A program made the position numbers and the translations under genes. From Echinarachnius parma (lineage: Eukaryota; Echinodermata; Echinoidea; Clypeasteroida; Echinarachniidae), in assembly GCA_037951105.1 (NCBI GenBank), contig JBAMJV010008844.1, positions 31,215-95,214 of the forward strand: 64,000 bases of DNA, in the 5' to 3' direction. The notes beneath the pieces were generated by a model. It made no database searches. It saw nothing but the letters and a program-made list of their open reading frames with translations, and was not told the DNA's origin. Each line of letters begins with the position of its first letter. Position 1 is the first letter of the stretch. Shown one piece after another: positions 7,192-49,100 of this stretch.

Positions 7192-10100
7192 CTGTTAAAG
7201 AAAAGAACAAAATGCAAATCATACAAATATGTTTAAATATACATCACTTTCTAGTGTATTTTCAAAATGTAAATAAACCAAATCAGTGAGGGAATATACA
7301 CATACATTTCTCACAATTTTGTAGAGCAATGCAAGACTGAAAATCTTTTTGTTGCCATTTGTTTCTTGGTCCTCTGATCTATATTGAAATTGGTTGTACT
7401 TTAATATCTGTTATTTTATATCCCGCACCAATTTTGTGAAATGGGAGGTAACATTGAACAATAGTAGACTTCATTCTTATACCAATATGAGTAATGAGCA
7501 ATGAAGTGTGAAATTTTCATAGAAAAAAGATACTGATTGAGCGATTTTCGGGCTGACATGTAAAGACAAAAGGTCACGTGACTTTGTAACGGTTGTTTTA
7601 AAAGATGCGCAAGACTCAAAAGAAAAAAGTCACCAAACGGCGGGGTGTCATCTTTACGCGTTCCTGAGCAATCAGAAAAATTGTGGAGGGGGGGGGGGCA
7701 TAATGCCCCCCCCCCCTCCCGGCCTTATTAGGGTTAAGATTATGAACCTCATTCCAACTTACTCAAAGTCTGTGTATTTCTCCAGATCCTTGACCGGAGT
7801 GAAGCCCACAACTCTCCTCATAATACCAAGCAGGCAGGCCGTGTCATCTGTGTCGCAATTCACAGTACCTATAGAGACATGACCAAAACAAAACAGACAT
7901 TCAATAATCTATAATAATCATCATCACTTTGACAATAGTAATTCTGTGTCTGTGATGTGAAGCCAACAACTCTCCTGATAATACCAAGCAGGCAGGCCGT
8001 GTCATCCATGTCACAAAATTAACAGTACCTATAGAGGCAAGATCAAAACAAAACAGACATTCAATCATCTATAATAATCATCATCACTTTGACAATAGTA
8101 ATTCTGTGTCTGTGATGTGAAGCCAACCACTCTCCTCATAATACCAAGCAGGCAGGCTGTGTCATCCGTGTCACAATTCACAGTACCTATAGAGGCAAGA
8201 CCAAAACAAAACAGGCATTCAATCATCTATAATAATCATCATCACTTTGACAATAGTAATTCTGTGTCTGTGATGTATAAACCTGCCCAATTGTCTCTAC
8301 ACATACACAGGAGTAATTCCTTCAACTCTCCTTATAATAATAACATTCAGTAATGCATGCCGTGTCATCCATGTCACAATTTAACCCGTTCAGGACTGAT
8401 TGATAGTATTCTCCATAGACCCTAGCCCGAGTATTCTGCTTTAACATGTATTCTCCATAGACCCTAGCCCGAGTATTCTGCTTTAACATGTATTCTCCAT
8501 AGACCCTAGCCCGAGTATTCTGCTTTAACATGTATTCTCCATAGACCCTAGCCCGAGTATTTTCAGGACCAGTCCTGAATGGGTTTAATACAGAACCTAG
8601 AGTGAGACAACAAAGAAGACATTTGTTATGATGATAATAATATAAATCATGATATTAACCCTAATCCCATTAGGGGGGGGGGGGGGGGGGCCATCTAGAC
8701 CGATTGGAATTTCACGTTCAAACTTCATGACTTTTTTCTCTTAAGTCTCCCGCATGTTTTGATATATAATTCACCCCGGTCGGACATGTAGAACTGATTT
8801 TAGAGGTCTATAATTGCTCAACCGTCACAAAAAACTGCAATTTTTGTACAGGTTTCTATGTAATTCATATATAAGATGCCATGTAAACTCCAAATCTGTT
8901 ATAATTGTTACATTGAATTATAATTTGGATTATTTCTTTGTTATTAGTTTAATTCATACACTTCAGAGATAAATTCTTCTAAAAAAAAACTTAAAAAAAC
9001 AAAACAATAAAAACAATAAAATACATAAGAATGAAAACAATGTGGGTAAATCGGGAATACTACTTTGCATATTTGCATAATTTATGCAAATTAGTGATAT
9101 ATTTTATGATGAATTACATCATTTGAAATTACTTTTACAGAAAACTTGTAATTTCTCTTGATTTTAGATGAAAATCCCAATTTCCCCCAAATTCATCAAA
9201 AATTTGCATATTCAAAATGTTAATTAATTATAAAAAAAAAAATAATGGTCTAAAATTTTTTTTCTTCTTCAAATTCTTATTCTTCTTGACTTGTTTTACG
9301 TATGTGCCAATTTTCAAGTCGATCGGTCCATTCGTTTCCGAGATTTGAGGGGGGGGGGCCAAAATGCCCCCCCCCCCCCCCTAATGGACTCAAGTGACCA
9401 AAATAACCCAATGGGAATCGGGTTAAAGAACGCAATTATTACTGGATCCTTCACTGGTGTAAATCCAAAAACCCTCCTCATTATACATCATGATACCAAG
9501 CAGGCAAGCAGCTGTAATCTGTGTCGCAATTCACAGAACCAAGAGATGGAAACAAAGCAGAAATCAGAAATAATATTGCTAGTGATATTCGTTTGTCTCG
9601 CAATGTATGGTCAACAAGGAATCTAAAAGATCACGACATTTCGTGATCTTTTAGATTCCTTGTTGACCATACATTGCGAGACAAACGAATATCACTAGCG
9701 ATATTATTTCCGATACTATATCCTCAATGAGTACTATATTTAGCATTAAAGCAGAAATCTTATAAGTAATGGTGCTGCCGCTGTACTGCTAATGATGGTG
9801 ATGCAAAAGGCATGGGTGTCAACCCTTTTCATCAGGGTGGCCCAGGTGGAGATTACCTTTTGTAATAATTACCACCTACAGCTGAATATGATCATGATGA
9901 TTGATGACGATGATAAAGACAATGATGGTTTTAACGTAATTCAATTTCCAACTCGGAAATCTTATGTCTTCTGGGTAACTTTAATTACTTTCAATCTAAA
10001 TCTTGATCAAATAAACTAAAAGCAATTAAATTGCTTGCATACTTATCAAGTCCTCTATAAATAATCAAATATCTCACCGTCCTCTCTGGTGTGTGCCTTG

Positions 10101-46100: not shown

Positions 46101-49100
46101 TGATTGATCTACCAGTTGGTGTTTATTTCCTTTCATGGGAATTCAATGTCATTAATTGCGTCAAAACTTCTGAATTTCACCATGTGTCCAAATGGACATT
46201 CTTGCAAGGAATGAAATGAGGATCATTTCAATTTCAAAAGTAGAAGATGAAGATAAAAGGGGAAGGTAAAGAATGATACGACAGGAAAAGGTAAAAAGGA
46301 AAGAGTAGGATATGAGAAGAAAAGAAACTACTGTAGGGACATCCACGGTTAAAAGTCATGGGCCCTGTTGCAGAAAGAGATACGATCGATTGTAAGTTAC
46401 GATTGATCGTAAGTCAGAAAATTAACGCGTTTCAACTAATCAGATTTGCGCATCTAGAACACGTGATCGGATTTACGATTAATCGCAACTTACAATCGAT
46501 TGTATCTCTTTCTGCAACGGGGCCATGATGTTATAAGGCCTTACTGAATCTATAGCTGAATTCAAAAGGATAAGGAGCAATGGTAGCCTACATGTAGGCA
46601 CTGTAGGTTCGGTCAATGTACTTCTGGGAAAGTCAATTCAATTTGATGCACAATCATGATGTTTTTTTTTCCTGCCTGAATGATCGGTTTTAATGGCAAG
46701 AAAGGAACATGTAAGTATGTAAATGTACATGATACAAAGTAAACCCAGGGGGTGTGGCACTAAACACATTTCACTAAACACTAAAATTAATTTTAGGATC
46801 AATTCAATAGAACGATTATTACATCAAATCAATGCTATAATTGATTTTATTGTTAGTGAAACACCCCCCCAGGTCTTCACAACCTCATGTACTGCTGCCT
46901 GGATAGGATGAGGTAATTTCAGTAACTCTGTGACTGATGTACCTGAATGTTAACATTTTGCAGACTCCCCCACTCCCTTGTGCATTGTATTCCTATCGTG
47001 TTAATCACATTTATTCATGAATGTACTTTAACATTCGTCCAAGGCTTCCAGAATATATGTGAACAGACATGCAGGTGTTTCTATTTCTAACATGATACAA
47101 ATGGTAATGAACTGTCGGTAATGAAAGTGGTATACATGTACAACAGTACAAGTACATTATGTTCAACTGAAATATTCTGAGCGAGTTGTTTCAATTAATT
47201 ATAAAATACCCGAGTGCTATTCTAGATTGCATATCTGCCTCTCCATACATGTATCTGTACGGTAATTGATGTGTATCGACCTTGTTTACTGCTATATATG
47301 CAGCAAGTAAGTATACCTTTTTATCTTTTACAAAATCTTTACATACGATGCATGTTCATTAGTATGAACTTAATGGTGAAAATGTCACCTATTTATTATA
47401 ATGATACCTTCTGCATGTAATTTATGCACAAGTTGTAATGCATGCACTTTCTTGTCCATTAGAGGGATATTGTTTTTACCTTAGAGGCTCATCCTAAGTA
47501 CTGTACATAGATTTGCCATGTACTAAGCAACGACTAATGCTAAGAGCAACTAACATTAACAATTTTCTATTCACAAACAAATTAATTGAATCATACGGTT
47601 TTCAGCTTGAAACATCTATGTACATGTATATGAATGCAAAATGAAACTGGTCTAAATTAGTGTTAATAGTGAATAGGGTCCTTAATGGGGTAACATCTGG
47701 TTAAAAGGGTAGGATTTGACCAATCCTTTGACCAGTCCTTCGCCAAAATTGTTCACGACCACTGGTTTCAATGTGTACAACCAAGGGGGGGGGGGGGGGG
47801 GGGGGGATCCGAGACCATTGTTTAGAATTAGATGGACGAGACCAATCAAAAGTGGACTCAAGACCGGTCAAAAGTGGACCTTAGACCAACAAAAAGTGTA
47901 ACTTTCTGAATTTGGGGGAGTGCGTACTCACCCAACGCACCCCCCCTTCCCCCGCTATCGGCCTGCTATACAGTTGGGCCATTAACTTAAAATCATACAA
48001 AATGCTACATGTTGAGACCTTGTTGAAAGTGTTTTATGATACAAAATATCCATGCTTGTAATTGCTTTGACTTACCAACTGAATGATGTTGGAGACATCT
48101 GACCATCCAAGCTCTTTGATGCAATCCCCACCGTCACACATACCCTGGTAACCCTATAGACGACAACACAAAATGAAATATTTCAATAATAAATCTAAAA
48201 TGGATAATATTTATCATAATTTAACACCAAATATTTAACACCCAAGCTCTTTGATGCAATCACCACGGCCACACATCCCCTGATAACCAACAGGCAACAA
48301 TTAAATATTTTAATATAATGGAATTATGTGTTTTTATTATGTTTAAATATCAAACATGTTCATAATGTGTATGATTTTAGTTTCCCCTTCTATTTTGTGT
48401 GTTTGAAGATGAGTTTACTGTGCCATGAGCACCTTAATAAAGGTGGAATAGGCGTAATAGAAAAATTCTTTATCATTGTTATTATTATAATATTTATCAT
48501 TTAACACCAAATATATAATTAAAAGACACAGAAGGTGTGTGCATCCCCATGATGCAAAATTTTAGACACACAAAGACACCCCTTGGTTGTTATGCAACAT
48601 TTTTGTACAGCTATTCCAAAAATATTTGCAACAATTAAGTTACTTTTTGGCTACTGGCTAGTGACTACTTTCAGACTTCAAAATGTTACAAATATTGTTC
48701 ACTTGAGAGTCAGTTGTGGGCATTTATAAGCTTTAGTTCCAGCAGAATCTTTGTCAGAGACTTAAAAATGTCCCCCAAATTCAAATAATATTTAAAAGAA
48801 AATTACAAAGATTTAAAAAATAAACACATTTAATATCTCACCTCATGAATAGCATAGACCTTGAAGCCGACATATATTCCCATTCGAACAACAGACCGTA
48901 CTGCAGCATTCATTCCTGAAATGACAAAACAAATATGTCACTGTTGTTTTTACCACTGAATTATTATGATAATTAAATTCAAACATAGAGGAAACTGACT
49001 AGAAATATTTTAAATGATTGAATATGAGCAAAGAAAAATAGGCCTCGTCAGGAATCAAACCCGAGACCTCCGGATTGCTAGACAAGTGCTCAACCATTGA

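Follow-up and report, generated by a model that had tools for sequence, protein, structure and literature searches.

Twelve of the 22 exons of a gene for ATP-dependent 6-phosphofructokinase (PFK) of the echinoderm Echinarachnius parma are accompanied by partial copies of themselves, usually composed of one exon edge and neighbouring intron. The gene lies in a stretch of 64,000 nucleotides of contig JBAMJV010008844.1 (assembly GCA_037951105.1, positions 31,215 to 95,214), referred to here as the window. In PFK and eight other genes of the same genome, such copies accompany 37 of 104 exons, and of the 61 tandem arrays found, 40 touch an exon. We consider, at a probability of roughly 0.64, that these structures correspond to the "mirages" reported in amphioxus, i.e., that they stem from recurrent tandem duplications at the DNA level with a preference for exons, which were filtered by selection and later changed by whole units. 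The exon preference has good support in PFK and is likely in the other genes.

The 22 PFK exons share one intact open frame according to a spliced protein-to-DNA alignment. The Pfam family PFK (PF00365, E=2e-200) was matched in two stretches of the predicted protein, whose nearest solved structures are those of muscle PFK and platelet PFK. Exon 1 as placed is unlikely to be the genuine start of the gene, and its extent 3' of exon 22 is uncertain; the count of 22 exons is therefore a minimum. A first-pass annotation of this DNA had named twelve PFK exons with nearby partial copies, and self-alignment of the window recovered the same twelve (exons 3, 4, 7, 8, 10, 12, 13, 14, 16, 19, 20 and 21); the other ten exons have no copy at the self-alignment thresholds. 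The gene and the copies are as follows:

7083..57821, minus strand: PFK gene body as placed, 22 exons (spliced protein-to-DNA alignment; Pfam PF00365, E=2e-200)
48239..48288, minus strand: 5' portion of exon 3 (exon 48076-48153) duplicated 135 bp upstream in the gene; no acceptor AG; 88% over 50 nt
34243..35015, minus strand: acceptor-edge array of exon 4 (exon 34108-34297); spacing ~145-206 bp
30901..32723, minus strand: acceptor-edge array of exon 7 (exon 30855-31008); unit ~210 bp; an insertion at ~31469-32129 divides the array
30128..30471, minus strand: acceptor-edge array of exon 8 (exon 30076-30171); unit 122 bp
27441..27897, minus strand: donor-edge array of exon 10 (exon 27820-27945); unit ~170 bp
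26153..26369, minus strand: acceptor-edge copy of exon 12 (functional exon 25901-25991); unit 227 bp
24113..24674, minus strand: donor-edge array of exon 13 (exon 24658-24804); unit ~187 bp, including 17 nt of exon
16180..16256, minus strand: copy of exon 14 (exon 16466-16536), downstream in the gene; without either splice site
14879..15014, minus strand: acceptor-edge copy of exon 16 (exon 14574-14726), 271 bp upstream in the gene; 95% over 136 nt
12524..12598, minus strand: acceptor-edge copy of exon 19 (exon 12293-12404), ~190 bp upstream in the gene; 85% over 75 nt
10112..11861, minus strand: acceptor-edge array of exon 20 (exon 10078-10180); unit 85 bp; 3.0 + 12.4 copies around a 433 bp insertion
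7785..8276, minus strand: acceptor-edge array of exon 21 (exon 7763-7868); unit 158 bp; older copy at 9445-9546

The unit lengths given in the first-pass annotation agree with those obtained by Tandem Repeats Finder (85, 122, 158, 187, 210 and 227 bp), and its view that the events are independent holds; there are many separate duplications, both in PFK and in other genes of this genome. Its description of the copies as an exon edge plus adjoining intron is borne out by direct alignment at nine exons (4, 7, 8, 10, 12, 13, 16, 20 and 21) and at exon 3 by residual intron similarity only (p=0.007); at exons 14 and 19 just the exonic portion is recognisable, and the exon 14 copy, positioned downstream of its exon, has no acceptor AG. 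The spliced alignment indicates that the authentic exons keep an intact frame. For exon 12, the initial gene model had taken 26158-26218 as the exon; this was rejected as a duplicate, the functional exon being 25901-25991, downstream of its look-alike. Two arrays harbor insertions: the 433 bp element of the exon 20 array (10372-10804) has inverted ends of ~37 bp and a likely ATAT target duplication, and is absent at the corresponding place in the related contigs C2989 and C8489 described below, and the element within the exon 7 array (31469-32129) has inverted ends rich in AAGCAATTGCTT motifs.

The form of the copies was assessed in a list of 75 copies from eight genes including PFK, to which the exon 20 array contributes 15 units. 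None of the 75 contains both splice sites: 54 are acceptor-edge copies, 11 are donor-edge copies and 10 align inside the exon only, with AG retained in 48 of 53 copies and GT in 8 of 11. The usual copy comprises the intron end, the splice site and ~20-125 nt from the start of the exon upstream of which it is located; PFK exons 10 and 13 exhibit the mirror arrangement, in which the donor is included and the copies lie downstream. Counted per exon in the eight genes, 25 exons are acceptor-edge and 9 donor-edge; adding PFK exon 13 and dropping exon 14 changes this to 24 versus 10, for which we calculate a two-sided binomial probability of ~0.01-0.03. PFK exon 13, with 17 nt of exon in its unit, falls under the 20 nt limit, and is included in the array counts but excluded from the copy listing and from the intron-source, unit-length and substitution analyses. 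HSPD1 (contig C762) was kept among the 75 copies and the 36 units considered below, but dropped from the array and exon counts because its gene model had been built with a distant chaperonin query. The absence of whole-exon copies is the best sign of selection against them: in a simulation of random placement, a whole exon is contained in 91 of the 327 PFK units that overlap an exon and in 86 of the 735 such CCT units, from which we calculate a chance of ~0.001 of finding none among 12 PFK and 24 CCT arrays.

The unit length is confined to a narrow range, with a median of 187 bp and quartiles of 171-211 bp over 36 arrays. It shows no correlation with exon length in these arrays, which rules out exon length as its origin. 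The median is similar to a nucleosome repeat, although a connection between the two is a guess. At least 20 nt of intron could be aligned in 18 of the 36 arrays, and eight of the other 18 keep residual similarity to the intron flank at p<=0.05 (0.9 expected). Since the intron flank aligns or has left residual similarity in most arrays, the copying source was mostly DNA rather than mRNA. The remaining ten arrays have no residual likeness to the intron flank, owing either to fast decay or to exon-only copying. Microhomology at the junctions, inspected by eye in two cases, gave no conclusion.

The 1.2 Gb assembly contains parts of PFK on three further contigs (C2989, C1935 and C8489), which are 5-10% divergent where alignable and are presumably haplotypes. 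PFK exons 16-17 occur on four contigs (C8828, C2989, C1935 and C8489), exceeding the expectation for one diploid animal, and the PFK sequence of C1935 contains one stop and one frameshift. Misassembly had been raised as a concern in the first-pass annotation. Of the PFK arrays that the recovered exons of each contig could show, C2989 carries 9 of 10, C1935 5 of 6 and C8489 3 of 3, some of them at other copy numbers; as three related contigs carry most of the arrays they could show, the duplications are not the assembly error of a single contig. At exons 10 and 13 the window contig has about one unit more than C2989 and C1935, the exon 19 array is expanded in C1935, and the exon 20 array contains by length ~20 units in C2989 and 13-14 units in C8489. 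These unit counts between contigs are flank-to-flank distances, which other insertions disturb; the distances at exon 12 of C2989 (593 bp) and at exon 19 of C8489 are not unit counts, and other comparisons were used there instead. Exon 12 is unduplicated in both C2989 and C1935, and the window contig doubles a 217 bp unit with ~10 extra junction bases. Among the related contigs, C2989 comes closest to the exon 12 copy (6 differences), and the functional unit shares some variants of C1935, with 8 differences from each of the two contigs. As to an inter-homolog origin, this comparison is suggestive and that of exon 16 is uninformative.

The generality of the phenomenon was examined in CCT5, CCT8, TCP1, CCT6, CCT7, CCT3, GPI and PK, chosen by protein family without prior knowledge of their arrays. 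These control genes, all conserved enzymes or chaperonins, are a convenience sample. Seven CCT-family contigs were used, together with a second CCT5 copy (C6105), and C4646, C5332 and others were left out. In the nine-gene counts the spacing was limited to <=700 bp, terminal exons of doubtful status were removed from the control models, and a PK array covering a donor with only 4 nt of exon was scored as intron-only. Without PFK, 25 of the 82 exons in the eight genes have a copy. The individual fractions are 12/22 in PFK, 6/12 in CCT8, 5/9 in CCT6, 4/10 in CCT7, 3/11 in both TCP1 and GPI, 2/10 in CCT5, 1/10 in CCT3 and 1/9 in PK; the terminal CCT8 exon has a non-GT end and the status of its copy is uncertain. 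PFK therefore lies at the upper end of a general trait. Apart from the exon copies, CCT5 contains an intron-only duplication of 149 bp (L021, 5725-6019), which is absent from C6105; its two copies differ by 8% and the contigs by ~5%.

The distribution of the arrays was compared with random placement along the genes. In PFK, 12 of 20 arrays lie on exons versus 4.0 expected, a value reached by none of 4000 placements; with 19 arrays, 3.9 are expected and none of 20000 placements reaches the observed number. In seven genes, 36 of 53 arrays lie on exons versus 15.9 expected (0 of 3000 placements). The analysis was also performed with the exons masked, which discards about half of each edge unit and is thus biased against edges. 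Under these terms 8 of 15 PFK arrays lie on exons versus 3.3 expected (136 of 20000 placements), and at an identity of >=85% the figures are 8 of 9 versus 2.4 (3 of 20000). The seven genes give 15 of 32 versus 8.7 (30 of 3000), and 11 of 20 versus 5.8 at >=85% identity (34 of 3000). The excess at exons is strong in PFK and weaker elsewhere. The content of guanine and cytosine was ruled out as a driver of duplication, as that of the intron-only arrays (0.373) is similar to that of the introns (0.367).

The first-pass annotation had itself offered the alternative that exon copies are simply the duplications that can be recognised, i.e., that duplications fall anywhere and the conserved exonic side keeps mainly exon copies recognisable. 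As a complete account we regard this as unlikely: it fails for the PFK excess, which survives the masking of exons, and it contributes outside PFK, where the masked CCT genes have 7 of 16 arrays on exons and where, as in PFK, several copies are recognisable just over their exonic part. In a simulation of decay with uniform placement and constrained exons, only 9% (PFK) and 27% (six CCT genes) of the detectable arrays lie on exons, compared with the 12 of 20 and 24 of 33 observed. An age-matched model starting from the edge arrays predicts 138 intron-only arrays in PFK and 79 in the CCT genes, far above the 3 and 4 seen with units of 100-300 bp, or the 8 and 9 with any unit. One of the three such PFK arrays is a severed part of the exon 7 array, the distal half of which is treated as a separate intronic array in the age-matched and flank-distance counts. 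The simulation rests on assumed settings, with an exon constraint of 0.25, an indel rate of 0.12 or 0.35, and ages either uniform or as observed. It predicts that 77% of the PFK edge arrays remain detectable after masking, and 8 of 12 were found. A related alternative, somewhat less doubtful in our opinion, concerns survival rather than mutation: duplication would be uniform, and loss would be slower near exons since deletions there are harmful. Intron sequence is indeed alignable between the related contigs over 75-100% of its length within 200 bp of exons and over 17-81% at 400-1600 bp, and faster turnover of intron in the latter range may explain part of the exon excess. However, the alignable part returns to 72-82% beyond 1600 bp in PFK, retention differs only about two-fold, less than the excess in PFK, and the window-contig arrays of >=95% identity sit at exons 7, 12 and 20, together with one intronic 42 bp minisatellite.

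Two further explanations have little probability. An assembly artefact, in which two divergent alleles were joined in tandem, would agree with the strong divergence of the related contigs and with the resemblance of the two exon 12 units to different contigs, but is very improbable: the exon 20 arrays amount to 13 to 20 units of 85 bp in three contigs, and the exon 12 copy has changes of its own and junction bases that match none of the three other sequences compared. It is scarcely credible that the copies serve as functional spare exons, either mutually exclusive or alternative. Half of the differences between copies and exons are synonymous (139 of 279, the other 140 being nonsynonymous) and an open frame of 318 codons spans part of the exon 7 array; against this, both splice sites occur in 0 of 75 copies, 10 of 13 indels are frameshifting, and the exon 12 copy is absent from two contigs.

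Several observations weigh against recurrent duplication with a preference for exons. The proportion of arrays on exons is only 3 of 6 in GPI, 1 of 2 in PK and 1 of 3 in CCT3. When PFK is set aside, masking leaves the six CCT genes with 7 of 16 arrays on exons, against ~5 expected by subtraction, and the masked excess of the seven genes therefore rests on PFK. Masking left 7 of 24 CCT edge arrays detectable, versus a simulated fraction of 0.72 (0.45 with more indels); the simulation is thus too lenient to introns, either because introns decay faster than modelled or because some copies had no intron from the start. Young intron-only arrays do exist: two in C2989 (unit 143 or 75 bp, 97-99% identity) and one in C1935 (unit 84 bp, 95%), in addition to the 42 bp minisatellite, which is 100% identical and lies in an intron of the window contig, and the CCT5 duplication of 149 bp missing from C6105. 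Finally, the per-site ratio of nonsynonymous to synonymous differences (similar to dN/dS) is 0.30, lower than the ~0.5 that we reckon for a constrained exon whose copy evolves neutrally; possible reasons are gene conversion, an earlier coding role or an unmodelled transition bias. After scaling for intron decay, we reckon that an excess of about four-fold remains in the CCT genes, and of ten-fold or more in PFK; outside PFK the excess is smaller and model-dependent. The proposal of the first-pass annotation that exon-intron junctions are hot spots accordingly stands in part: recognisable tandem duplications are denser at exon edges than in introns, which is not in itself proof of a higher mutation rate.

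The mechanism that we favor for the mirages would begin with the duplication of a stretch comprising one exon edge and its neighbouring intron, made at the DNA level, repeatedly and in many genes, with a typical unit of ~187 bp. The arrays would subsequently gain or lose whole units. A copy with a single splice site would be ignored by splicing and hence be harmless, and whole-exon copies would be eliminated by selection. The duplicating process itself may prefer exons; it would probably be a break or a replication-repair event about one nucleosome repeat long, aided by the slower loss of sequence near exons. A bolder version, which we hold to be improbable, posits an exon-anchored, genome-wide duplication whose quantum equals a single nucleosome repeat: where a fork stalls or a break occurs at an exon, repair would proceed by a copy of ~190 bp, possibly taken from the homologous chromosome, and end-joined into a mirage. 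The homologous chromosome is suggested as a donor because the exon 12 copy and the functional unit carry variants of different related contigs. If this version were true, the introns of such genomes would consist in part of decayed exon edges.

Additional repetitive features were observed in the window. A tRNA family match at 49040-49111 (minus strand, intron 1), the sole Rfam match in the window at the gathering threshold, is perhaps a tRNA-derived short interspersed nuclear element. A short telomere-like (CCTAAC)n array is located at 57451-57502, in intron 1 near exon 1. An inverted pair (44693-45183 and 56725-57217) has 98% identity over 493 bp with a separation of 12 kb. The segments 51673-52065, 23059-23305, 19183-19383, 9563-9714 and 59209-59379, of 150-390 bp, match their own reverse complements at 83-96% and resemble miniature inverted-repeat transposable elements.

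The sequence itself also speaks for an echinoderm host. In the mitochondrial DNA, COX1 was identified by a family search, and the remaining genes by their translations and a tRNA scan. On one strand they read COX1, R, ND4L, COX2, K, ATP6, COX3, S (reverse), ND3, ND4, H, S, ND5, ND6 (reverse), CYTB, followed by a block E, T, P, Q, N, L, A, W, C, V, M, D, Y, G, L, ND1, I, ND2, which is the arrangement of echinoids and holothuroids. The AGA and ATA codons of COX1 agree with the echinoderm code; the single comparable AAA codon, aligned with a lysine of the reference, does not. COX1 shares 383 of 396 residues with a Strongylocentrotus sequence and 380 of 396 with one of Apostichopus, which differ little in this respect, and a match to the bindin family (E=1e-33) points to a sea urchin. 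On these grounds an echinoderm is nearly certain and an echinoid likely. An amphioxus host, considered in view of the mirage literature, was rejected; a search for the GFP family had no hit, but as this does not prove absence, the rejection relies on the mitochondrial DNA and bindin.

The first-pass annotation knew of no description of such recurrence; structures of the same kind are nevertheless already known as amphioxus mirages. Passages of PMC3087553 report them for Adh3 and the globins BflGb6 and BflGb9, and passages of PMC3902484 describe mirages of 60 and 108 bp in lancelet PGBD5 and cite TnC as a further case. Amphioxus mirages reportedly leave normal splicing intact, and somatic instability of length is reported for that of Adh3. 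As in amphioxus, the tandem unit in PFK crosses the exon-intron boundary (nine exons directly and one by residual similarity), either the 5' or the 3' exon boundary may be duplicated (the 25 acceptor-edge and 9 donor-edge exons, plus the donor edge of PFK exon 13), and the copy number varies between contigs, presumably haplotypes (exons 10, 12, 13 and others). Unlike the single cases in amphioxus, 37 of 104 exons in nine genes are concerned here, in an echinoderm; the acceptor edge is commoner, and intron-only duplications were compared. The model of Rogers, cited in PMC3087553, in which tandem duplication of AG/GT proto-splice sites is a source of introns, similarly involves an internal tandem duplication that copies splice signals, but the present copies sit within introns. 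Tandem exon duplication and mutually exclusive exons likewise place additional exon-like sequence beside an exon; unlike mutually exclusive exons, none of the 75 listed copies has both an acceptor and a donor. Among the matches listed in searches of the open-licence PubMed Central literature, judged by titles and abstract openings, we found neither echinoderm cases nor a genome-wide count of mirages. What the present genes add is a new phylum, the extent of the phenomenon, a narrow spread of unit lengths, the absence of copies that include a whole exon, and a test against introns.

What appeared to be a curiosity of a few amphioxus genes thus extends to a second deuterostome phylum and to about a third of the exons examined. 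If exon edges are the true targets, splice sites would be constantly duplicated, with consequences for the emergence of novel introns and alternative splice sites, for gene annotation, and for the question of which repair route generates tandem duplications of ~190 bp. Exon 12 and other cases in which the chromosomes differ would allow this to be tested in a laboratory sea urchin.

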